From Christiangramia sediminis (GTDB lineage Bacteria; Bacteroidota; Bacteroidia; Flavobacteriales; Flavobacteriaceae): a stretch of 64,000 nt of DNA. This document shows, in pieces, positions 36,507 through 47,926 of this stretch. Every line of letters starts with the position of its first letter. Position 1 is the first letter of the stretch. Below the pieces are notes generated by a model. That model was given only the letters and a program-made list of their open reading frames with translations. It did no database searches and was not told where the DNA came from. The translations under genes and the position numbers were made by a program. The stretch lies in NCBI RefSeq assembly GCF_020552705.1, contig NZ_JAJBZG010000005.1, forward strand, positions 620,001 through 684,000. Direction: 5' to 3'.

Positions 36507-36934
36507 TCTTCGAGTGCTGTTATTTGCTCAAGTTCAACGCCTGCTTTTTCTAAAAAATCAAGGCCTGAATTATCTTTATAATCAATTTGATAAACCAGCC
36601 TGCTAATACCAGATTGGTGTATCAATTTACTGCATTCCTTACACGGAGACATGGTAATATACAAAGTGGCATCTTTACAGGATTGGGTAGAACCCGCAAC
36701 TTTAAGAATTGCATTGGCCTCTGCATGTAAAACATACCATTTAGTATAGCCTTCTTCATCTTCACAAAAATTTTCAAATCCGGAGGGGGTACCATTATAT
36801 CCGTCAGAAATGATCATTCTATCCTTTACAATTAACGCGCCAACCTGTTTTCTATTACAATGGGATAATTTACTCCATTCCCGGGCAATTCTCAAATAAG
36901 CTTTATCAAATTTTAGCTGTTTTTTCTTATTCAT
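36503..36934 (-). CDS. Deoxycytidylate (dCMP) deaminase family protein
   Basis: 143 residues with zinc ligands HAE at 70-72 and PCKEC at 97-101. CNRKQVGALIVKDRMIISDGYNGTPSG matches dCMP deaminases/ComEB. It converts dCMP to dUMP for thymidylate synthesis. It is the upstream partner of the S41 peptidase gene by a four-base overlap. Confidence 0.88.
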   Translation of the reverse strand: MNKKKQLKFDKAYLRIAREWSKLSHCNRKQVGALIVKDRMIISDGYNGTPSGFENFCEDEEGYTKWYVLHAEANAILKVAGSTQSCKDATLYITMSPCKECSKLIHQSGISRLVYQIDYKDNSGLDFLEKAGVELEQITALED

Positions 36935-37024
36935 AGCAAGTATAGAAGTCTGGTTCGCAGAAATTAATAATAACCTGCAAATTAAAAGATTATTGTTAAA
37001 AATATAGTCTAAAGCGGCTTTAAT

Positions 37025-37612
37025 CTACAAGGCCAGATAACTATCTAAAAGAATGGGAAGAATTACGCCAATCACGATAGATGCTGTAACCAGGATCCAA
37101 TCTCTTTTGGAGACGTTAAGAACATTTTGAAGCAGAAAGCCAATGATCATAACCGCCAGAACCACGATCACCTGAGCGGTTTCTATTCCCAGGGCAAATT
37201 CTACCAGGGGCCAGAATTTACTTTCAGAACCGGCCGCGATCATTTTGAAATAAGAAGAAAAACCCAATCCATGAATAATTCCGAAAAAAGCGGTGGTGAA
37301 ATAAAGGATACTAAAATTGGTATTTCTAACTTTTCTACCTGCCGTAGCAATATCGAAAATTGCCGTCGCCAAAATGGTAACGGGAATTAAGAATTCTACA
37401 TAATTCGCATCTACTTTTACAATCTCGTAAACTGAAAGAAAAAGAGCTAATGTATGTCCCAGGGTAAAAAGTGTGACCAGCCAGAGCACGCGTTTCCAGG
37501 TAGTAAACCCATAGGAAGCTACTAAAACGATAAGAAAAAGTACATGATCATAGGCTTGCCAATCCAAAACATGATCCAGGCCAAGCTTAAAGTACAACCA
37601 AAATTGAGACAT
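37025..37612 (-). CDS. HupE/UreJ-family membrane protein
   Basis: 195 residues and six to seven hydrophobic segments. GLDHVLDWQAYDHVLFLIVL, LFTLGHTLALFLSVY and FGIIHGLGFSSYF contain the conserved His residues of the HupE/UreJ_2 group, which includes metal (Ni/Co) permease-like proteins. No hydrogenase or urease genes are nearby, so the substrate is open. It is a single gene 90 bases upstream of the dCMP deaminase gene on the same strand. Confidence 0.78.
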   Translation of the reverse strand: MSQFWLYFKLGLDHVLDWQAYDHVLFLIVLVASYGFTTWKRVLWLVTLFTLGHTLALFLSVYEIVKVDANYVEFLIPVTILATAIFDIATAGRKVRNTNFSILYFTTAFFGIIHGLGFSSYFKMIAAGSESKFWPLVEFALGIETAQVIVVLAVMIIGFLLQNVLNVSKRDWILVTASIVIGVILPILLDSYLAL

Positions 37613-37712
37613 AGCTGAGTTTATTAGCGAAGTTTCGAAAGTACAATTTATTCGAATAAAAGCAAAGATGAGGATACCCAGTTAAGCTCTCCCATAAAAG
37701 ATTCTGAAGTAA

Positions 37713-37734
37713 AAATACCTTTATAAAGGTATTT
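37713..37734. promoter_or_regulatory. Operator-like palindrome, copy A
   Basis: AAATACCT - 6 bases - AGGTATTT is a perfect inverted repeat. The same 8-6-8 layout recurs at 38839, 41808 and 43559. It sits just upstream of the possible promoter of the RNA candidate. Confidence 0.7.
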
Positions 37735-37768
37735 CTTGGTGTATACTTCATGTTTATCTTAGCCTCAT

Positions 37769-37923
37769 CAAATAAATGATTAGTAATTGATAATGGGACG
37801 TGGAAATTTGGGTAGGGTCAAATTTCCAAAATGTTTTGTTGGGGTAGAACAATATATGTCCAATTCCAATATGAGTCATAATATTTGATATAAAGCCTTT
37901 AGAGTATTTCTGAAGGCTTTTTT
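37769..37923 (+). ncRNA. Candidate small structured RNA (or 31-codon peptide mRNA)
   Basis: The transcription start is estimated from the near-consensus box at 37755-37762. Hairpin 1 (37801-37828) has the perfect arms TGGAAATTTG and CAAATTTCCA around the loop GGTAGGGT. Hairpin 2 (about 37837-37854) has arms TTGTT/AACAA around GGGGTAG. The transcript ends in a terminator. The same span encodes an open frame of 31 codons (ATG 37793 to TGA 37886-37888) whose stop lies four bases before the terminator stem, so a small peptide is the alternative. The G-rich loops look suited to pairing or protein binding. Inference only. Confidence 0.45.
37892..37923 (+). terminator. Terminator of RNA candidate
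   Basis: AAAGCCTTTAGA and TCTGAAGGCTTT form a stem with one mismatch, followed by a run of T to 37923. Confidence 0.75.
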
Positions 37924-38016
37924 ATTGGTATTTTCTTCCAATGAAATTTCAAAATCTACTCAAGATTCTTTAAAATTTCAATAATTCTTATATTTACTTT
38001 CCCAAGTTTAAACCTT

Positions 38017-38829
38017 ATGCAAAAGGGTCTCAGGAAGATCTCAGATTACTGGAAAGAGATTTATTCCCGCCAGGTGAAAGATTATCGTCCTTTTGAAATC
38101 TCTGATGATTTTAAAAGGTATGCCTCCATGTTCGCAGTGGGGAACTCCTATTTATACATTGTGAATCTTCATAATTTTGAACTGGAATACGTTTCAGAAT
38201 CTGTCGAACAATTTTTGGGAAAGGATGCCGGGGAGGTACATCTTAAAGATCTTATGAAGACAGTACTCCCGGAAGAAATTGAGAACATCCATCTTAAAAG
38301 TAAGCTTATCAGTGATTTTTATACTGCTTATCTGGAAAAAGAAGAAGTACTGGCCTATAAAAATATGTTTTCCTATCGCATGAAAGATGCCCGCGGAAAG
38401 ATAAGAACCATGCTCTATCAGGCAATTCCGCTAAGCGTGTTGGAGAATGGCACGCCCGAGCATGTGCTTTGTATACAAACCGATGTTTCGCATCTTAAGA
38501 TCACCAGCACCTCTACTGTTTCTTTTATTAATATGGACGGTGGCAAATGTTACTTCAACGTAGATATCTCTAAAGGCAAATTTGATCCCCAGGCCTGTGA
38601 AGGAGATAAAAAAGATATTTCAAAGCTTTTTTCTGAAAGGGAAAAAGAGATCGTGATCAAATTATCCAGAGGATTAAATGCGGAACAGATCGCGGACGAA
38701 CTGAATCTTTCCCATCATACTATTAAAACTCACAGACGGAATATTTTACAAAAAAGCGGTTGTACAAATACTACCGAATTAGTTGCAAAATGTCTTACCA
38801 ATGGCATCATCTCTCCAGGACTTAATTAA
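38017..38829 (+). CDS. LuxR-type HTH regulator with N-terminal sensor-like domain (paralog 1)
   Basis: 270 residues. The N-terminal ~185 residues look PAS-like (NSYLYIVNLHNFELEYVSES, then LYQAIPLSV and CIQTDVSHLK), though the fold is inferred. The C-terminal GerE/LuxR helix-turn-helix (about 205-262) reads LFSEREKEIVIKLSRGLNAEQIADELNLSHHTIKTHRRNIL. No transmembrane segment or receiver Asp pattern was seen. A second copy of the same length and layout is at 43620. It lies next to the histidine kinase/response regulator unit and downstream of the RNA candidate's terminator. The signal is unknown. Confidence 0.8.
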   Translation: MQKGLRKISDYWKEIYSRQVKDYRPFEISDDFKRYASMFAVGNSYLYIVNLHNFELEYVSESVEQFLGKDAGEVHLKDLMKTVLPEEIENIHLKSKLISDFYTAYLEKEEVLAYKNMFSYRMKDARGKIRTMLYQAIPLSVLENGTPEHVLCIQTDVSHLKITSTSTVSFINMDGGKCYFNVDISKGKFDPQACEGDKKDISKLFSEREKEIVIKLSRGLNAEQIADELNLSHHTIKTHRRNILQKSGCTNTTELVAKCLTNGIISPGLN

Positions 38830-38838
38830 TAAGACTAT

Positions 38839-38860
38839 AAATACCCTTTAATGGGTATTT
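38839..38860. promoter_or_regulatory. Operator-like palindrome, copy B
   Basis: AAATACCC - TTTAAT - GGGTATTT is a perfect inverted repeat ten bases after the stop of the first regulator and upstream of the 39027 unit. Inner heptamers TACCCTT and ATGGGTA with a 2-base gap resemble the 7-2-7 arrangement known for NarL sites. Confidence 0.7.
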
Positions 38861-39026
38861 CATCAAGGAGCTTTGAATAGTAATTTTACCAATACGGTTC
38901 AAGTGAAAATTAGAAAAATTGAATCCCTTAAATTCTATTAATCAGGTATTCAACATTTGATTAATATTTTTTTTCGAAATTAGAACTCAGATTTAAAATT
39001 CCAACTAACCAATTAAAATTATTCTA

Positions 39027-39404
39027 ATGACTAAAGAATATGTTAACTCTCAATTTGAAGTTGAAAGTAAAAAACTTCAATTCAAATCAAATTCAGGAAA
39101 ATTAACTGAAGTACATTTTAAAATAAAATTTCCAGAAAAATTTGAAGTTTTAAATGCTGAATTTACAGATGATGACCATATAGTGATTAAATTCAAAGGG
39201 ACTGATGGCTGCACACTGGCAGAAAATCTTGTCAATTCTAAGTCTTCAACAACAAAAAAAGTGGAGGTCGAACTTGGTGATAGGTCAGGAATTCCAGGAA
39301 GTATCAAAATTGAATATATACTGGCTGAAGTAAGTGATTCCTGTAAACCGAATTTTGTTCCTGAAACTGCTGGCGGAGGAATTTTAGTAGGAACCGGAGG
39401 TTAA
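39027..39404 (+). CDS. Unknown 125-residue protein, first gene of kinase operon
   Basis: 125 residues with no signal peptide and no transmembrane segment. It has a beta-rich pattern (LTEVHFKIKFPEKFEVLNAEF, HIVIKFKGTDGC), two Cys, and a Gly-rich C-terminus (ETAGGGILVGTGG). It is not recognised. The histidine kinase starts one base after its stop, so the two are certainly co-transcribed. It may be a signal-binding or scaffold partner of the kinase; this is inference from position. Confidence 0.6.
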   Translation: MTKEYVNSQFEVESKKLQFKSNSGKLTEVHFKIKFPEKFEVLNAEFTDDDHIVIKFKGTDGCTLAENLVNSKSSTTKKVEVELGDRSGIPGSIKIEYILAEVSDSCKPNFVPETAGGGILVGTGG

Positions 39405-39405
39405 A

Positions 39406-41175
39406 TTGCAACATAAGCTATTCCATAAGATCATACTGGCGGCAAGTTTTTTACTTGCTGCCATTACCTATTCCCAAAACTCAAAATTTCCGAAAATTGA
39501 TAGTCTTATCAAGATTCGAGAGACTAACCCGGCGACAATTCTTCTGGCTGAAATAGATTCGGCAAGATTAAAACCCAGCTATAAAGCCGAATATTATTTT
39601 CTACTTGCCCGCCTGGAAGGACTCAAAAACCAGGCAGATGATAGTTTTGAGAATTTTATGATCGCAAAACGAAAATATAAAGATCTGGATAGCCTGGAGA
39701 AAGTTGCAAGTATCAACCTTCAGATCATTCCCCTACTCACTTCAAGTAAGAATAAGGACCTTGATCCCCAGCCCTTTATGAAGGAATACCTTGATTATGC
39801 ACGGGAAAAAAATGATCCCGAATTACTGGCTAAAGCTTACATGCAATTGGGAAGTATCTTCATTAATTCTGATATTCAGAAAACCATTGAATATTTCAAT
39901 AAAGCCATTCAGGAGAACAAAAAAACCGGTGATTCTTTAATGAATGCAAAGATCCATCATAACCTGGGGGTGGCTTACGGTGAGAAAACAGAAAAGAAGG
40001 ATTCTGCCATCTATCATTATGAGATCGCTTTGGAAGAATATGAGAAGAGAGGACTTACAGATTATATTTCTTATATCTACAATAACAAAGCTTCTGTCCT
40101 CAAACAGTTGAAGCAATATGATTCTGCAATTGCCTACTACAAAAAGGCGGAGGCTATCGCGCCAAAGGAGTATGAAAAAGAAAATAAACGCTTGCTATAT
40201 AAACATATGGCAGATGCTTATGAACAAAAAGGAGATTTTCCCAATGCCTACAGGTATCTGAAATTAGAAAAGACCTACCAGGACAGTATTCAGCAAAGTG
40301 AGCAAAATAGTGCAATGCTGGATATTCAGACTAAATACGAGGTGGAGAAGAAAGAAAATGAAAATCTAAGGCTGAGACAAAATAGAATATGGTTGCTAGC
40401 CGCAGTGGGAGCTTTGATACTGGTGCTCATTATTGGTTTTCTCTCTTATAAGAACCTGAAATCAAAAAAGAAGATCACAGAAAAAGAGTATGAAGTTCAG
40501 AAACAAAAACTGGATTCGGTTTTAAAACAACAGGAATTAGCGGGTATAGATGCAATGATAGAGGGTCAGGAGAAAGAGCGACAGCGTATTGCCAACGATC
40601 TCCATGATAACCTGGGTGGTTTACTGGCGACCTTAAAACTGCATTTTCAGAACCTGAAAGTAAGAAAAGACCGTTTAAAGGAAGAGGAAGACCGACTTTT
40701 GAAACAAACAGATGATCTTATAGATGAAGCCTATCAGCAGGTAAGAAGTATTGCGCATGCAAAAAATGCCGGAGTGAATGCTCAGGAAGGCTTATTACCC
40801 GCCGTAAAGAATTTTGCCAGTAAAGTTTCAGCTTCAAATAAATTAGTCATAGAAGTAGAAGATACGGATATGGATGATAGGCTGGAAAATTCTATGGAAA
40901 TTATGATCTTCAGGATCATCCAGGAGCTTATTACCAACGTTATCAAACATGCTGATGCTTCAGAGGCAACCATTCACCTCACTCATTACGGGGATGCGAT
41001 CAATATTCTTGTAGAAGATGATGGAAGAGGTTTCGCCTGGGAGGAAGTAAAACCTAAAGAGGGAATGGGTATCTATTCCATTCAAAAACGGGTGGAACAT
41101 TTTGGAGGAACGGTAGATTTTGAAAGTGTTCCCGGCAAGGGAACTTCTGTAGTCATAAATATGCCATTATCATGA
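39406..41175 (+). CDS. TPR-sensor histidine kinase (HisKA_3-type)
   Basis: 589 residues from a TTG start, the only start preserving the signal peptide (to about AITYSQ, residue 24). Tetratricopeptide repeats (about 60-300) sit in the presumed periplasmic part. They are followed by one membrane segment (about 327-347), a short coiled coil, the dimerisation/phosphoacceptor helix ERQRIANDLHDNLGG with His400, and an HATPase_c domain (NVIKHADASEATIHL, DDGRGFAW). This is the family that pairs with NarL-type response regulators. The regulator follows with a four-base overlap. Confidence 0.92.
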   Translation: MQHKLFHKIILAASFLLAAITYSQNSKFPKIDSLIKIRETNPATILLAEIDSARLKPSYKAEYYFLLARLEGLKNQADDSFENFMIAKRKYKDLDSLEKVASINLQIIPLLTSSKNKDLDPQPFMKEYLDYAREKNDPELLAKAYMQLGSIFINSDIQKTIEYFNKAIQENKKTGDSLMNAKIHHNLGVAYGEKTEKKDSAIYHYEIALEEYEKRGLTDYISYIYNNKASVLKQLKQYDSAIAYYKKAEAIAPKEYEKENKRLLYKHMADAYEQKGDFPNAYRYLKLEKTYQDSIQQSEQNSAMLDIQTKYEVEKKENENLRLRQNRIWLLAAVGALILVLIIGFLSYKNLKSKKKITEKEYEVQKQKLDSVLKQQELAGIDAMIEGQEKERQRIANDLHDNLGGLLATLKLHFQNLKVRKDRLKEEEDRLLKQTDDLIDEAYQQVRSIAHAKNAGVNAQEGLLPAVKNFASKVSASNKLVIEVEDTDMDDRLENSMEIMIFRIIQELITNVIKHADASEATIHLTHYGDAINILVEDDGRGFAWEEVKPKEGMGIYSIQKRVEHFGGTVDFESVPGKGTSVVINMPLS

Positions 41176-41789
41176 TTAGATTAGTTATTGCTGAAGACCA
41201 TATCGCCCTGATCGATGGAATTAAAGTATTCTTTGAATATGAAGAAGATATTGAGTTCTTAGGCTTCGCCGGAAATGGCCGGGAATTGATGGATCTGGTG
41301 GAAAGAAAAAGACCAAACCTGGTAATCACCGATATTAGAATGCCGGTTATGGATGGGATTCAGGCTACCAAAAATATATTAAAGCAGAACCCAGAGATCA
41401 AAGTGATCGCTTTTACCATGTTTGATCAGGATAATGCCGTGCAACAAATGCTGGATGCCGGGGCCAGAGGATATATTCTGAAAAATGCGAGTCTTAAAGA
41501 TTTGCTTTTTGCTATTAGAAAAGTGCATTCAGGAGAAGTTTATTATGATCCTAATATAAATGTCGAGTCAAAAGAGAATTCAGCTAAAAGAAAATCGGTT
41601 CTTACTAAGCGCCAGCGGGAGATCTTAAAACTGGTGGGACTGGGGAAAACCAATCAGGAAATTGCCGATGCGCTGTTTATTGGAAAAACTACCGTGGAGA
41701 CCCACCGCAAGAATATGATAAAAAAGTTGAATCTTCAGGGAGCAGGCGAGTTACTTAGGTATGCTTTAGATCGCAAATACGATTTCTAA
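41172..41789 (+). CDS. NarL/FixJ-type response regulator
   Basis: 205 residues. The receiver domain has acidic pair Glu8-Asp9, phosphoacceptor Asp54 (VITDIRMP) and Lys near 104. The C-terminal LuxR helix-turn-helix (about 138-200) reads LTKRQREILKLVGLGKTNQEIADALFIGKTTVETHRKNMI. It overlaps the kinase gene by four bases (ATGA), so the pair acts together. It is a natural candidate to bind the four TACCC-type palindromes in this region, but this is inferred from the 7-2-7 resemblance only. Confidence 0.93.
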   Translation: MIRLVIAEDHIALIDGIKVFFEYEEDIEFLGFAGNGRELMDLVERKRPNLVITDIRMPVMDGIQATKNILKQNPEIKVIAFTMFDQDNAVQQMLDAGARGYILKNASLKDLLFAIRKVHSGEVYYDPNINVESKENSAKRKSVLTKRQREILKLVGLGKTNQEIADALFIGKTTVETHRKNMIKKLNLQGAGELLRYALDRKYDF

Positions 41790-41807
41790 TAATTATTAGA
41801 ACTTAAA

Positions 41808-41829
41808 AATTACCCTTTTATGGGTATTT
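41808..41829. promoter_or_regulatory. Operator-like palindrome, copy C
   Basis: AATTACCC - TTTTAT - GGGTATTT has one mismatch in the arms. It lies 18 bases after the response regulator stop and 124 bases before the lipoprotein start. Confidence 0.6.
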
Positions 41830-41953
41830 ACAGGAATCAATTTAGGTTCTATTTTTATCATCAATTAAAAGCAGTAAGAATTTTTTGGTGCTTTTTCCGA
41901 AAATCATTTTTTGTTTTATCAATACCTCCCTACAGGTTCTAAATCTCTATTTC

Positions 41954-43492
41954 ATGAAAACCTGGAAAAATTTAATGTTAATCTTTTTATTGTTCGGTCT
42001 TTTTAGTTGCTCAGAAGACGATCTTGTTGACAGGGGTGATGATGGGCCAGATCCTGGACCTGATCCTGTGGCAGAAACGCAAACTGGAGTCTTTAGAGAC
42101 TCTGAAGTTGCCGGCTTAAATTATGAAACTGAAACTAAAAGCGGAGTCACAGATGCTGAAGGTAAATTTGAATACCTGGAAGGTGAGACCGTAACCTTTT
42201 CTTTGGGAGATATTATTCTTGGCAGTGGTCCTGCAAGTGAAGATATGACCCCAATATCTATTGTTTCTACTGAAAATGCTACAGTGGAGATTCCAGAAGT
42301 CAAAAATATCGCCGCTTTTTTGCAAAGCCTGGATTCTGATAATGACCCCAGCAACGGGATAAGTATTAGTGAAGAAACTGCTGCCGCTATAACTATAGAT
42401 GCGATAGATTTTACCCAGCCAATTGAACGTATTCTTGGTGAGATCGTAGCTGAAGTTAATTTAGCAACAGGTTCAGAACTTGAAGTGGTTTACCCGGAAG
42501 AGGCAGCAGTACATTTAGCTGAAACCACCGGGGATACTTACGATCCCGGAGTGGATGTCTTTAAAAAATTCATTCCCACACTGGAAAGCTGGAAACCATA
42601 TCCGCCAACCAGTGTGTATTGGATCCATGAAACAAATGCAGAGGGTGAGCTTATAAACTCCACTCTCTATGAGAAATATCCAGAAAGAATCCTATATAAG
42701 ATAGACTATACAGAATTATTGGAAAGTAATTTACCTGCCAGTTATGTGCAAACTTATTATAATTATGGAGAGCCAGGAAATAAGGTGAGCGTTCAGGTTA
42801 ATTATAATGAAGACCATACTGTGGCTGGTTTTTATAGAAATAATGCCGATGGGTCTTTTAATCAGAATTTAAAATTTGTTCTGGAGGATAATAACCGGGT
42901 TTCAGAAGGATTATTCTATAGTGAAAACGATGAATTCTGGTATAGACAGGTCTATGAGAAATTTGCAAATGGGAATACCAAAGTAAATACAAGATATACT
43001 TCAGAAAGTGGTTATGATGATTCGGCCGTTCAAAGAAGAAATGAATATACATATACTGAATTTGGAGATATAGCAAGTGAAACCATAGATTCTAAAACAG
43101 ATAATTTTGAAACTTACACATGGTATTATGCGTATACGAATGAAAAAACACTGGAGTCTAAAAAAAGTGAATCTGTCGCTCTTAATGGAAGAAACCAGAC
43201 CTGGGATATTTTTTATGATTCTAGCGAGAGAATAGAAAGGCAGGTAATTTCAGCAGGTGATTTTGTAAGTGATTACGTAGAATTCTATCCTAATGGCGAT
43301 CCCAAAAGAGCAGAAACTTATTATCAGGGATTTTTATATGAAATTGTAGAATGGGCAGAGGACGGAACCTCAGTTTGGAAAACAATTAATGAAGAAGACG
43401 GCTCTTATAAAATTGAATATAAAGATGAAAATGAGAATATACTAAAGACAGAATATTACGATTCTGATGGAAATCTGATTTCTACTGAATAG
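41954..43492 (+). CDS. Lipoprotein of unknown function
   Basis: 512 residues from ATG 41954, chosen because it gives a clean signal peptide with lipobox Cys19 (LFSC). The frame is open 23 codons further upstream without signal features. An acidic Asp/Pro linker (DDGPDPGPDPVAE) is followed by an Ig-like or carboxypeptidase-regulatory-type domain (about 45-150; TDAEGKFEYLEGETVTFSLGD). The C-terminal ~250 residues are a series of short YxF/WxY-rich strands resembling toxin/RHS-like or MORN-like repeats (FYPNGDPKRAETYY, YYDSDGNLIST). The function is not recognised. It is downstream of palindrome C and probably surface-exposed. Confidence 0.7.
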   Translation: MKTWKNLMLIFLLFGLFSCSEDDLVDRGDDGPDPGPDPVAETQTGVFRDSEVAGLNYETETKSGVTDAEGKFEYLEGETVTFSLGDIILGSGPASEDMTPISIVSTENATVEIPEVKNIAAFLQSLDSDNDPSNGISISEETAAAITIDAIDFTQPIERILGEIVAEVNLATGSELEVVYPEEAAVHLAETTGDTYDPGVDVFKKFIPTLESWKPYPPTSVYWIHETNAEGELINSTLYEKYPERILYKIDYTELLESNLPASYVQTYYNYGEPGNKVSVQVNYNEDHTVAGFYRNNADGSFNQNLKFVLEDNNRVSEGLFYSENDEFWYRQVYEKFANGNTKVNTRYTSESGYDDSAVQRRNEYTYTEFGDIASETIDSKTDNFETYTWYYAYTNEKTLESKKSESVALNGRNQTWDIFYDSSERIERQVISAGDFVSDYVEFYPNGDPKRAETYYQGFLYEIVEWAEDGTSVWKTINEEDGSYKIEYKDENENILKTEYYDSDGNLISTE

Positions 43493-43513
43493 TAACATTT
43501 TTACTAGCCTGAT

Positions 43514-43540
43514 AAAAGCGGTCAATTGACCGCTTTTTTT
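43514..43540 (+). terminator. Terminator after the lipoprotein gene
   Basis: A perfect 12-bp stem, AAAAGCGGTCAA and TTGACCGCTTTT, with a T run to 43540. Confidence 0.85.
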
Positions 43541-43558
43541 ATTTGATTGAAACTGAAA

Positions 43559-43580
43559 AAATACCCTAAAAGAGGTATTT
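43559..43580. promoter_or_regulatory. Operator-like palindrome, copy D
   Basis: AAATACCC - TAAAAG - AGGTATTT has one mismatch. It lies 39 bases before the start of the second regulator, so it would overlap that gene's promoter. Confidence 0.65.
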
Positions 43581-43619
43581 TTTATATATTGTAGTGAATC
43601 TAATAAGCTATAGCTTTTT

Positions 43620-44432
43620 ATGAATCAGGAATTTAATAAGATTTCGAAATACTGGAAAAGGGAATATTCTGAAAAGTTTTCTGAATATAATTCCTATCAG
43701 GCTTCTAAAGAATTTAAACAGATCGCAGCGCTTTTCGCACCCGGAAATTCCTATTACTATATTTTGAATATGCATAATCTGGAGCTCGATCATGTTTCAG
43801 ATTCAGTAAAGTTATTTGCGGGTAAGACTGCTTCAGAAGTTACTATGCAGGATCTCCTTAAACTGGCTTTACCCGGTGAAATTGAAAATATTCAGCAAAA
43901 GGAAAACGTGATAAAAGATTTCTACCTGCGCTTTTTAAAGCCCGACCAGATTTTAGATTATAAGGTGATGTACTCTTATCAAATGCAGAATCCAAAAGGG
44001 AAGATTATAACTATTCTTCACCAGGCAACGGCACTTACGCTGAATGAAAATGGTTTTTTTGAACATGTGTTCAGTGTGCATTCAGATATCTCCCATTTAA
44101 AAGTTACGAGCAGCAGGGACATTTCTTTTATAAATATGAAAGGAGGAAAATCATATTATAATATCAACCCTGAACACCAAAAGTTTGATCCATCCTATGC
44201 CGATTATCAGGAGGAAGAGCTTTCTGAACTTTTTTCAGAAAGAGAGGTGCAGGTTATTAATGAATTAGCCGGAGGATTAAATGCTGAAAATATTGCTGAA
44301 AAATTGAATCTCTCCCCGCATACCGTGAAGACACATCGAAAGAATATTCTTCATAAAAGCGGTTGTAGTAATACTGCGCAATTAATAGCAAAATGTCTTA
44401 CGGGTGGAGTTATTTCTGCGGGTTTGAATTGA
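43620..44432 (+). CDS. LuxR-type HTH regulator with N-terminal sensor-like domain (paralog 2)
   Basis: 270 residues, the same length as and clearly homologous to the gene at 38017. Shared blocks include ISKYWKREYSEK/ISDYWKEIYSRQ, AVGNSY/APGNSY, NLHNFELEYVS/NMHNLELDHVS, HQATALTL/YQAIPLSV and FINM-GGK. The C-terminal HTH reads LFSEREVQVINELAGGLNAENIAEKLNLSPHTVKTHRKNIL. It is preceded at 39 bases by palindrome D, which would allow autoregulation or control by the response regulator. It is probably a tandem-duplication product with the lipoprotein and kinase genes between the copies. Confidence 0.8.
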   Translation: MNQEFNKISKYWKREYSEKFSEYNSYQASKEFKQIAALFAPGNSYYYILNMHNLELDHVSDSVKLFAGKTASEVTMQDLLKLALPGEIENIQQKENVIKDFYLRFLKPDQILDYKVMYSYQMQNPKGKIITILHQATALTLNENGFFEHVFSVHSDISHLKVTSSRDISFINMKGGKSYYNINPEHQKFDPSYADYQEEELSELFSEREVQVINELAGGLNAENIAEKLNLSPHTVKTHRKNILHKSGCSNTAQLIAKCLTGGVISAGLN

Positions 44433-44475
44433 AGTTTCTTTTGAGTATTTAAAATATGTTGAATTATTTTATTTA

Positions 44476-46179
44476 TCAATATCCACAGTCCGTTGAATAC
44501 TCCGTATTATCATTTTTCTTCCATCGATAGTTTAGAGGATCTGCATTGATTTCTTCCCAGTGTGTATCTGCAATCTGTATGCAATCCAGGTCTGGATTAT
44601 TTTCAGCATACATAGTGTAAAGTTTTGAACTGCGTGAAATATCAAGTTGAGAGAGACTATTATCTGAGATAAAGAGCTCTCTTAAGTTGACGTTCTCTAA
44701 TAAGTTTATATTTAATAGTGAGTTATTGGATATTGATAAGAATTCCAGTTTTGGACATTTGCTAACATCAATCTCGTGTAGATTATTATACCCCAGATTA
44801 ATTTCCCGAAGGTTTGGAAAGAATGAGAGATCTATGGATTCCAGTGGTTGATTGTCTATATTAAGATGCCAGAGGTTTTCGTTTCGGCTAAACTTCAATT
44901 CATTCAGGTTACCACCTTCTATTGTTAACATTTCTAATTCCTCATTTTGCGAGACATCCAAATTAGAAATTGTTGTAGCGTGAAGTTCTAGAATCTTTAA
45001 TTTCTCATTTCCAGAAAAATCTATAGTTTCTATCTTTCCGTATTCCAGGTAAAAACTTTGTAATTCAGCATTCTGATCTATATCGAGATGGGTCAATTCA
45101 GTAGAGCTCAGGTAAACACGCTCTAAAAAAGAATTAGTGGTAAGATCTATTTCTTTGATGGTAGAGGAATTCAGCGTGAAGTGTGTAAGAGAAACAAAAT
45201 CTTCCAAACCGGTGAGATCATTTACAGCATAATTTACAAAGCTCAAGGCTGTCAATCCGGAAATATTTTCAGTAAGAACATAATTGTCTATTATATTATC
45301 CAAACCTCGATCGATTAGCTCCTGCTCAAAAACATCATCCGGTATATAGGTTTTTGCTCCACATTCAGTTTTGGAAATTAAAATATCCAGTTCTTCCTGA
45401 GAGGCTGGTTGAAAAGTATGATAGGTTACGGAAGCATCTGAATTTTCTATTTTTCTTTCCAAATTACCATTAGAGTTTATAAGATAACTATGAATAGCAT
45501 TTCCGTTATTTTTTTGATGAATATATCTTAGGTATCCGGTATTGTTTTTAATAAGGATTAGTTCGCCGTCATTATATTTATTCGTTTCTGCAGAGAAACA
45601 GTCTTCAGAATTCCAGCCTACAAAATTTTGCAACCACGTACCATTATGGTGATCTACAAATTTTATAAAATAAGTATTATTATCAGCAGTCATTTTCCAT
45701 ACGCTGTCGTCATGACAATTCAAAAATGAATAACAATCTCCGCGCCTGTAATCGATTCTTCGGTTACAATGATATGCTGCAGCGCAAATACCATTTAATT
45801 CTATCTCAAAATACATGACACCGCTAGTGAAATTTACGTTGCCTATATTCCCTGCTTCACCAAGACTGATAGACTTTTCGCTGGTTACCGTATATTCCCC
45901 GGTAATTGTACCGCCAGTATAGGTAACGGTAAAAGTCCCATCAATATAAAATATTAAGGAAGAAACATAACACAGATCATCATCAACAGCCTGCCTATTA
46001 CTAGAATTAGCCTGGCCGTCGTCATCTTCAACTTCCCAAAGGCCAATTATTTTTTCTTCAAGTTCAAAAATTTCTTTAGAAATTTGTTTTGGTTCTTCTG
46101 AAGGATTGTCTTTTGAACAGGAAAAACATGTTATAAAAAGTGCGAAAGCGATGTAGGGAATTCTTGAGCATCGTCTCAT
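44476..46179 (-). CDS. Leucine-rich-repeat lipoprotein
   Basis: 567 residues with lipobox Cys21 (TCFSC). A lipocalin-like N-terminal part (about 35-165; IIGLWEVED, IDGTFTVTYTGGTITGEYTV) is followed by a spacer and about ten leucine-rich repeats (about 290-530; for example LEFLSISNNSLLNINLLENV). The C-terminal cap, NPDLDCIQIADTHWEEI, is common on Bacteroidota LRR proteins. It is presumably surface-exposed and involved in binding. It is a single gene, convergent with the second regulator. Confidence 0.85.
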   Translation of the reverse strand: MRRCSRIPYIAFALFITCFSCSKDNPSEEPKQISKEIFELEEKIIGLWEVEDDDGQANSSNRQAVDDDLCYVSSLIFYIDGTFTVTYTGGTITGEYTVTSEKSISLGEAGNIGNVNFTSGVMYFEIELNGICAAAYHCNRRIDYRRGDCYSFLNCHDDSVWKMTADNNTYFIKFVDHHNGTWLQNFVGWNSEDCFSAETNKYNDGELILIKNNTGYLRYIHQKNNGNAIHSYLINSNGNLERKIENSDASVTYHTFQPASQEELDILISKTECGAKTYIPDDVFEQELIDRGLDNIIDNYVLTENISGLTALSFVNYAVNDLTGLEDFVSLTHFTLNSSTIKEIDLTTNSFLERVYLSSTELTHLDIDQNAELQSFYLEYGKIETIDFSGNEKLKILELHATTISNLDVSQNEELEMLTIEGGNLNELKFSRNENLWHLNIDNQPLESIDLSFFPNLREINLGYNNLHEIDVSKCPKLEFLSISNNSLLNINLLENVNLRELFISDNSLSQLDISRSSKLYTMYAENNPDLDCIQIADTHWEEINADPLNYRWKKNDNTEYSTDCGY

Positions 46180-46610: not shown

Positions 46611-46699
46611 TGGATTGTAAGTGACTGTTAAATAAAACATTACGGGTTTTATTGTATTCTTTTTTCAACTAAATTTAATTGAAATTAAAGAGGGAAAAG

Positions 46700-47926
46700 A
46701 TGCAAAATTTACTATCTATTTTATTCTATATAAGAAAGAGTAAGGATAAGGAAGCTACTCAGGCCACAGTATACTTAAGAATTACGTACGATAGTAAGCG
46801 TGCAGAGGCTAGTACAATGCGGAAAGTTTCCCTTGGAAAGTGGAATGCTCAGGCTAATAAAGTTGTGGGATCTTCTATAGAAGCTAAACAGGTAAATAGG
46901 AATCTTGATATCATCAAAAACAGGATTTATGAGATCTACCAGAAATTTCTGGATAATGGAGAAGAAATAACTGCCATTAAAATCAAGGATGAATTCTTAG
47001 GAAATAACGACACCCAAAAGTCCATTCTTCAAATGTTTGAAGAACATAATATGAGAATGGAAAAACTAATTGGGAAGGATTACTCTTTCCGAACGCTTCA
47101 AAGATATAAAACCACGAAAAAGCACCTGGCTTCTTTTATTACTTCAAGTTTTAAATTGAAAGATTATAAGGTAAGAGATATAGATGTGAAATTTATCAAC
47201 TCCTTTATCTATTATCTAAAAACGAAACTCGACCTTTCTCATAACTCAGCCCTTAAATATCTTTCATACCTTAAAAAAATAGTTAGAATCGCCTATACAA
47301 ATGGTTGGGTGGAGAAAGATCCATTTTACAATTTCAAATTAAAAGTGCAGGTAATAGATCGGGAATTTTTGACTAAAGAAGAAATCATTAAAATAATGGA
47401 AAAGGAGTTTACGATTCCTCGAATGGAACATGTTAGGGATGTTTTTCTTTTTTCCTGTTATACCGGCCTTGCTTATGTGGATGTTTTCAAGCTGACTGCA
47501 GATGATATTATCAAAGGTATCGATGGAAACAAATGGATCAAGACCAAACGAACCAAAACTAAAACTCTAAGTAGTATTCCTATACTTCCGGTTGCTGAAA
47601 AACTAATAGAAAAATACGGGGACTTAGAAAGCCCAACTGGAAAATTACTTCCAGTTTATACAAACCAACGTATGAACAGTTATTTAAAAGAAATAGCTGA
47701 TAGCTGCGATATTAAAAAGAACCTGACCTTCCACATGGCCAGGCATACTTTTGCTACTACAGTAACCCTTTCCAATGGAGTTCCAATAGAATCAGTTAGT
47801 AAGATGCTTGGACATCGCTCGCTGAAAACAACCCAACATTATGCAAAGATTCTTGATGAGAAACTCAGTGAGGATATGAATTTACTGAAGGCGCGAATTT
47901 TAGCCGGGGAGCGAATGGAGAAATAG
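46700..47926 (+). CDS. Tyrosine recombinase / integrase
   Basis: 408 residues from ATG 46700; a TTG seven codons upstream is possible, but the family starts close to this Met (MQNLLSILFYIRKSK). It has an arm-binding N-terminal domain, a SAM-like core-binding domain (about 100-205) and a catalytic domain (about 215-400). The catalytic domain has HMARHTFATT, LGHRSLKTTQHYAKI with nucleophile Tyr, and CYTGLAYVDVFKL where the first catalytic Arg is Ala. IntDOT and many Bacteroidota integrases also lack that Arg. It would integrate and excise the element and is the first gene after tRNA-Leu. Confidence 0.92.
   Translation: MQNLLSILFYIRKSKDKEATQATVYLRITYDSKRAEASTMRKVSLGKWNAQANKVVGSSIEAKQVNRNLDIIKNRIYEIYQKFLDNGEEITAIKIKDEFLGNNDTQKSILQMFEEHNMRMEKLIGKDYSFRTLQRYKTTKKHLASFITSSFKLKDYKVRDIDVKFINSFIYYLKTKLDLSHNSALKYLSYLKKIVRIAYTNGWVEKDPFYNFKLKVQVIDREFLTKEEIIKIMEKEFTIPRMEHVRDVFLFSCYTGLAYVDVFKLTADDIIKGIDGNKWIKTKRTKTKTLSSIPILPVAEKLIEKYGDLESPTGKLLPVYTNQRMNSYLKEIADSCDIKKNLTFHMARHTFATTVTLSNGVPIESVSKMLGHRSLKTTQHYAKILDEKLSEDMNLLKARILAGERMEK

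Follow-up and report, generated by a model that had tools for sequence, protein, structure and literature searches.

The locus

The window examined here, a 64,000-nucleotide stretch of the Christiangramia sediminis genome (C1:620001-684000 of G000), contains four copies of the palindrome AAATACCY-N6-RGGTATTT, and with them genes for three regulators, RegA, RegB and a response regulator (RR), and a predicted small structured RNA, RNA-I. An earlier note on this DNA had placed the copies, two with perfect arms and two with one mismatch, before an RNA candidate, before a unit encoding an unknown protein, a kinase and a regulator, before a lipoprotein gene and 39 bp before a second regulator gene; scanning confirms the copies, and the genes lie as it had them. 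It was also right that all three regulators carry a helix-turn-helix (HTH) of the NarL type, the domain being GerE (LuxR/NarL-type, PF00196) in each. What it missed is the fixed 20-bp distance between the palindrome and the -7 box of a promoter, and a family of small RNAs. The features of the locus are the following.

37713 to 37734, no strand: operator copy 1, a perfect 22-bp palindrome whose TTT falls where the -33 box of the RNA-I promoter is expected
37755 to 37762, plus strand: -7 box TATCTTAG of the RNA-I promoter, 20 bp after copy 1, predicted +1 near 37767 (alignment)
37766 to 37923, plus strand: RNA-I, a small structured RNA of 158 nt (folding, covariation and the model R1)
37802 to 37827, plus strand: RNA-I hairpin with a GUAGGG loop (GTAGGG at 37812-37817), compensatory change in 6 of 7 pairs
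37892 to 37923, plus strand: intrinsic terminator of RNA-I (folding, alignment)
37989 to 37996, plus strand: conserved -7 box TATATTTA of RegA's own promoter, after the RNA-I terminator (alignment of 13 leaders)
38017 to 38829, plus strand: RegA, a PAS-like and GerE (LuxR-type) regulator of 270 aa (Pfam, AlphaFold2, Foldseek)
38839 to 38860, no strand: operator copy 2, perfect 8-bp arms
38881 to 38888, plus strand: -7 box TAATTTTA, 20 bp after copy 2
39027 to 39404, plus strand: 125-aa protein unmatched in Pfam and NCBIfam, encoded by the gene that opens the copy-2 unit
39406 to 41175, plus strand: histidine kinase with TPR and HisKA_3 (Pfam)
41172 to 41789, plus strand: RR, a NarL-type response regulator with the helix TVETHRKN (Pfam)
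41808 to 41829, no strand: operator copy 3, one arm mismatch, after an 18-bp gap from the RR gene
41850 to 41857, plus strand: -7 box TATTTTTA, 20 bp after copy 3
41954 to 43492, plus strand: lipoprotein-like protein of 512 aa downstream of copy 3, no Pfam match, judged a lipoprotein by eye from its signal sequence
43559 to 43580, no strand: operator copy 4, one arm mismatch, no -7 box at +20 (TAATAAGC)
43620 to 44432, plus strand: RegB, a RegA paralog (52% identity) with a GerE domain (Pfam), its gene starting 39 bp after copy 4

Abundance of the palindrome

A scan of the window allowing three mismatches returns 6 matches, against 1.87 +/- 1.30 in shuffled sequence, and none of 100 shuffles reaches 6. 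In the whole 3.25-Mb genome there are 8 sites with at most one mismatch and none for the reversed pattern used as control; four are packed into one 5.9-kb stretch, and the other half lie outside the window, all of them intergenic:

C1:83796: flanked by genes for a SpoU-type methylase and for a cytochrome c lipoprotein-like protein
C1:110656 and C1:111307: flanking a gene for a 185-aa lipoprotein-like protein, the former also preceding a DUF4403 gene
C3:70441: ahead of a DUF5723 gene

At up to two mismatches the excess in the same genome is small (14 sites, 9 for the control), and trust is therefore limited to sites with none or one. At that stringency the 24 genomes of the genus, its own included, have 79 sites against 10 for the reversed control, distributed over 20 genomes. 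Among the 76 analysed in detail (the set lacks one site of G021 and two of G023) 63 are intergenic by a crude open reading frame (ORF) caller, and 3 of the other 13 are RNA promoters beneath spurious or over-extended ORF calls. The genome-wide scan that the earlier note had proposed thus shows neither random frequency nor a mainly coding placement. The site is also kept at orthologous loci: 9 of 10 named RegA loci retain it, with 0-3 mismatches, in the syntenic place within about 450 bp upstream, L040 being the one that lacks it.

A fixed place in the promoter

According to passages of PMC9723704, the sigma-A -7 element of Flavobacterium psychrophilum has the consensus TAnnTTTG at -12 to -5. 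This element was scored at every offset from 0 to 49 on both flanks of the 76 genus sites (152 flanks), with at least five of its six letters required for a match. It stands at exactly 20 bp in 44 flanks and in at most 5 at any other offset, though orthologous sites are not independent; all 10 sites that fall within ORF-called coding genes lack it there. Given this spacing, the operator would span about -54 to -33 of a sigma-A promoter, counted from predicted start sites, and its last TTT would coincide with the -33 box; that is the position of a class II activator. A site over the -33/-35 region at a fixed distance from the -7/-10 element, the feature of class II activator promoters, is thus what the predicted starts give. 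The -33 consensus is TTTG. Its G follows the TTT of the operator in only 2 of the 44 promoters and the core promoter, for this reason, looks activator-dependent. A regulator bound at -54 to -33 would then recruit RNA polymerase in class II fashion to a promoter whose own -33 box is degenerate.

The exact overlap with -33 would also suit a repressor that masks the -33 box when bound and so shuts the promoter, and copy 4, which lies 39 bp from the start of RegB and has no -7 box at +20, resembles an autorepression site; in G004 and G010, too, the operator of a RegB-type gene lies 35 bp before the ATG with no -7 box at +20. Copy 4 may represent a different, autoregulatory use of the operator. For the operator in general repression is unlikely, as a -33 G retained in 2 of 44 promoters speaks for a core that needs an activator, and the rigid spacing is needed for class II activation while repression tolerates other positions.

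Palindrome, 20-bp spacing and -7 box can be searched together as a composite. At up to two mismatches it occurs in 219 of 397 genomes of the family, the per-genome controls, which were not summed, being visibly lower; at up to one mismatch the order yields 33 matches against 1 control match, in 23 of 196 genomes. In several other genera an operator occupies the same place after the RR gene as does copy 3. Judged by this distribution, the palindrome is a genus- to order-wide operator used across Flavobacteriales. Of the local regulon that the earlier note had proposed, the regulatory palindrome for a NarL/LuxR-type HTH stands, with self- and cross-regulation likely; its confinement to the locus does not, because half of the eight sites of the genome lie outside the window, and operators occur in other genera also. 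Several copies, inverted symmetry and mostly intergenic placement could also describe a mobile or REP-like (repetitive extragenic palindromic) repeat with no regulatory role. The spacers and outer flanks vary among the copies, however, the -7 box is fixed at 20 bp, and sites are kept at orthologous loci across genera, all of which make such a repeat extremely improbable.

Variant palindromes, in which the outer AAAT/ATTT and the 20-bp distance to the -7 box are kept and the inner letters differ (AAATCCCC..GGGGATTT; AAATACGT..ACGTATTT), are present in G288 (L134:9137, 10831 and 14122) and G186 and, as a second group, in G192, G153, G341 and G101, and those of G288 follow a response regulator that shares about 60% identity with the RR of the window. 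They suggest related operators of shifted specificity, and so a larger operator set.

RNA-I

Compared with shuffled sequence RNA-I folds with z = -5.89. An alignment of 13 orthologs has three helices with 89.7% of cells paired, and its covariation is 0.379, against 0.205 when shuffled (0 of 500 reaching it) and 0.045-0.132 in slid controls; the ORF check saw no conserved ATG reading frame in it. The model R1 detects RNA-I in 13 of the 13 genus genomes that have a RegA ortholog (at least 64% identity). Nine of these genomes, with Salegentibacter and Salinimicrobium loci, went into the model; the other four are independent of it and score 147 (G019), 119.5 (G021), 81.2 (G010) and 79.9 bits (G004). 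RNA-I is also at the Salegentibacter and Salinimicrobium loci, as part of the model. Membership of a known RNA family was considered and rejected: Rfam at E<=1 gave two weak matches in window positions 36900-44500, neither on RNA-I, and at gathering score returned tRNAs only from nine further loci.

Since RNA-I is directly upstream of regA and on the same strand in most orthologous loci examined, 37766-37923 might be taken for a leader or attenuator of regA. The conserved intrinsic terminator, followed by a separate conserved -7 box TATATTTA before regA, argues for a distinct RNA, as does the finding of RNA-I and regA on different contigs in G004 and of a regB-type gene between them in G010; other RNAs with the GUAGGG loop, described below, precede unrelated genes. 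A leader is accordingly a very unlikely reading of the element, and RNA-I is treated here as a probable small RNA.

Candidate regulators

A GerE-domain (LuxR/NarL-type) regulator would bind the palindrome as a dimer, and the regulators that fit this site within the genus would be those with a common recognition helix, T-x-x-T-H-[RW]-[KR]-N. In RegA the Pfam match to GerE is strong and that to PAS_9 weak (20.0 bits, below the cut-off of 27); its AlphaFold2 model has a pLDDT (predicted local distance difference test) of 80.7. RegA/RegB-type proteins are encoded in 18 of the 24 genus genomes (E<=1e-30) and the histidine kinase in 9 (E<=1e-60). Operators are found in 19 of the 22 genomes of at least 90% completeness; the near-complete genomes with no site, G012, G017 and G022, match neither RegA/RegB type nor kinase at these thresholds. 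G018 has 5 sites and neither protein; it does have F4, a GerE protein of 252 aa with orthologs in 7 more genomes at 63-89% identity to its own. The helix T-[VIL]-x-T-H-[RW]-[KR]-N is common to the 18 RegA/RegB members examined, the RR of the window and F4. In the zero-site genomes the 10 GerE proteins examined, of 16 matches (E<=1e-5), have TVRKHVEN/TVRKHIEN, TVSKHASN, TVENYRES or TIEKHRSS.

Close relatives of RR occur in 83 of the 397 family genomes. Linkage was counted in 59 listed genomes of the 219 with composite matches, 21 of which carry RR: 26 of the 76 listed matches are within 5 kb of RR, where 0.21 would be expected, in 16 of the 21 genomes, and with the own genome and G003 removed the count is 22 of 63 matches in 14 of 19 genomes. 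In several of the linked genomes the composite comes directly after the RR stop codon, as copy 3 does. By this linkage RR appears to be the best supported operator-linked regulator outside the genus.

Any dimeric factor can bind a palindrome, and a GerE gene is present in only 10 of 20 regions around sites in other genera, so a regulator of another kind might be the binder, with RegA, RegB and RR mere targets. The linkage to RR in 16 of 21 genomes, the lack of RegA/RegB-type and kinase matches in the genomes with no site, and the NarL-like spacing of the site all tell against this, and it is considered quite improbable relative to a GerE-domain binder.

In two relatives regA is broken, a remnant lying beside the operator in G018 (L088 near 5146) and in-frame stops interrupting the gene in G023 (C1:2105844-2106651). 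The 125-aa protein ahead of the kinase diverges fast, its homologs in L042 and L043 being 42% and 53% identical.

A wider set of candidate GUAGGG RNAs

Downstream of other operators there are RNAs with a common plan: operator, 20 bp, -7 box, 33-56 nt, GUAGGG within a hairpin, and terminator. Among 124 distinct operator promoters, defined by sites with up to two mismatches and a -7 box with four of six letters, GTAGGG follows within 150 nt in 33, compared with 4 of 124 on the opposite side, where the control window was 200 nt; orthologous loci are not independent in this count, and two of the 33, L054 at offset 92 and L136 at offset 59, appear to be chance occurrences. The second RNA of the own genome folds with z -5.02, and in an alignment of eight GUAGGG RNAs compensatory changes occur at 12 of the 38 pairs predicted.

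All 8 genomes with an F4 ortholog that were examined hold a GUAGGG RNA other than RNA-I (L087, L114, L076, L086, L051, L081, L117 and L067), and such RNAs also lie near regA/regB-type genes where F4 is absent (L061, L077, L094, L104 and L113). R1 gives weak matches after other operators, at C1:110656 of the own genome (L016, E 0.011) and at L076, L051, L094, L104, L114, L087, L067 and L081. A composite pattern with the RNA loop is matched in 10 of 397 family genomes, of which by sequence only G000, G030 and G054 look real.

Among the start windows of 651 called genes 9 contain CCCTAC, the complement of GUAGGG, and for two internal windows the counts are 3 and 1, a result equalled by about 1.2% of 6-mers; some of the CCCTAC matches in wider windows are near-identical, repeat-like stretches in L073 and L082. 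In the window under study CCCTACA is at the copy-3 lipoprotein gene (-26) and at a leucine-rich repeat (LRR) lipoprotein gene (+21). In L068 and L101 no such match was found at the lipoprotein-like genes next to operators, whose homology was not tested. Pairing between the GUAGGG loop and CCCUAC close to start codons is possible, as a lead only.

The LRR lipoprotein-like gene adjoins the locus (window 44476-46179, minus strand) and a similar-looking gene is in G018 (L088:918-2609). Beyond it, at 46679-47926, is an ORF that by eye resembles tyrosine recombinases of Bacteroidota and may mark the border of a mobile element. In G018 (L087:6039-7134) and its relatives the second RNA, near deoC, has an MgtC-family gene and a DUF4403-like gene downstream; envelope or Mg-related genes recur near operators, DUF4403 having been tested on the own-genome copy.

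Proposed mechanism

As a class, a model in which a GerE-domain dimer binds the operator, activates in class II manner and drives small RNAs is probable. The sequence itself shows the repeat, its spacing, the promoter, the structure and terminator of the RNA, the conservation and the linkage; the identity of the binding protein, activation in preference to repression, production of the RNA, its target and its signal are inferred. The operator would be common to the kinase-controlled RR, to RegA and RegB as PAS-LuxR regulators and to F4, a third type found in relatives. Copy 1 would drive RNA-I just upstream of RegA, itself expressed from its own promoter, copy 2 the kinase/RR unit and copy 3 the lipoprotein. 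In the likeliest scheme a signal perceived through the PAS domain of RegA or through the kinase would yield an active regulator, this would turn on its GUAGGG RNA and surface proteins, and the RNA would act post-transcriptionally through its G-rich loop. That RegA in particular is the activator of RNA-I is somewhat less secure, and is regarded as more likely than not.

A broader arrangement is conceivable and is offered tentatively. RegA, RegB, F4 and RR may form a modular system in which all read one operator and each is paired with a GUAGGG RNA of its own, so that several signals would be pooled into one post-transcriptional output, either through pairing with CCCUAC near the start codons of mRNAs for envelope proteins or through occupation of an RNA-binding protein. 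Such a system, in Christiangramia and near genera, would be a counterpart, within Bacteroidota, to VqmA-VqmR and Gac/Rsm, independent in origin and raised on an operator-promoter unit of the Flavobacteriales.

Besides copy 4, which does not share the -7 box of copies 1-3, and the regions with no GerE gene, a number of observations count against the model of operator, activator and RNAs. Several regulator families fit the operator, and the binder at each promoter is not singled out by them; F4 entered the phylogenetic profile post hoc, once G018 had failed the RegA/kinase profile, and in the own genome a second RNA (RNA-II) is present with no F4. G019 (73% complete) has two RegA-type matches and no site at up to one mismatch, and G020 (67% complete) has one site and no RegA/RegB-type or kinase match. 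Regulators beside sites in other genera have the helices TVEKHRKN (L142), TINTHKKN (L141) and TVATHRKK (L125), the first of them close to TIEKHRSN/TIEKHRSS, a family present in zero-site genomes too; because the helix varies in this way outside the genus, its signature is a genus-level lead and not a rule. For the RNAs, R1 matches are rare outside the genus and its near relatives (5 of 299 family genomes), two RNA-I copies (L045 and L048) are without GUAGGG, and R1 gave no match at L086, L113 and L117. On the other RNA types R1 scores 36.2 to 24.3 bits (E 0.002-0.28) and, because stray and antisense matches reach 31.2 bits, it is GUAGGG, the architecture and the promoter, and not R1, that support a kinship of the RNA types.

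Relation to known systems

The 7-2-7 site of NarL and NarP consists of inverted TACYYMT heptamers with a 2-bp gap, and the earlier note had likened the palindrome to it. The likeness is partial and extends to the inverted TACYY half sites, the centre spacing and the HTH family. Heptamer position 6 is mostly T and not A/C (T in 25 and A in 11 of 44; the search itself imposes the fixed letters of the pattern). Outer AAA/TTT arms are part of the site here, and the rigid link to a Bacteroidota-type promoter is a further difference from NarL/NarP.

In the Gac/Rsm system the GacA-type NarL regulator activates the RNAs RsmY and RsmZ, which have repeated GGA in hairpin loops. A NarL/FixJ-type regulator, a palindrome and several small RNAs with a common G-rich loop motif are shared features. 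The loop motif here is GUAGGG, where there it is GGA, and the operator here overlaps -33, where the GacA site is far upstream.

With VqmA-VqmR of Vibrio the resemblance is the pairing of a PAS and GerE regulator with a small RNA, and a palindromic operator; VqmA, as passages of PMC8284805 describe, activates a small-RNA gene. In a Foldseek search the RegA model retrieves 3clo, a LuxR-type protein of Bacteroides thetaiotaomicron, first, and then the VqmA chains 7dwm, 6ide, 6ugl and 6kju together with EL222. The template-modelling (TM) scores are about 0.45-0.5 to 3clo and about 0.28-0.38 to VqmA, and no VqmA chain is among the 41 sequence matches of RegA. In view of these low scores and the lack of a sequence match, VqmA is a likeness of plan and not of membership. 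The VqmA operator is GG-N6-CC, from the same passages of PMC8284805, and that here CC-N8-GG. Unlike VqmA-VqmR, RNA-I has no Rfam match, several RNAs and regulators are present, and the operator is apparently common to a two-component response regulator.

FopS, which parts of PMC11697453 present as a paralogous small-RNA family of Bacteroides thetaiotaomicron, is similar, by comparison of descriptions, in being such a family in Bacteroidota. The Rfp small RNAs of F. psychrophilum, likewise from the Flavobacteriaceae, were also compared by description, and the parts of PMC9723704 that deal with them mention no such operator and no LuxR-type control of small RNAs.

Significance

No description of the operator or of the RNAs was found among the top-ranked results of a literature search that covered few subscription journals, and the GUAGGG small-RNA family is apparently previously undescribed. 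To our knowledge little has been charted in Bacteroidota of either transcription-factor sites or small-RNA circuits. As motif and promoter can be searched for together in the genomes of Flavobacteriales, an immediate list of candidate promoters is at hand; the signature of the recognition helix suggests which of the LuxR/NarL-type regulators read the operator, and the conserved loop of the small-RNA family makes its function directly testable.

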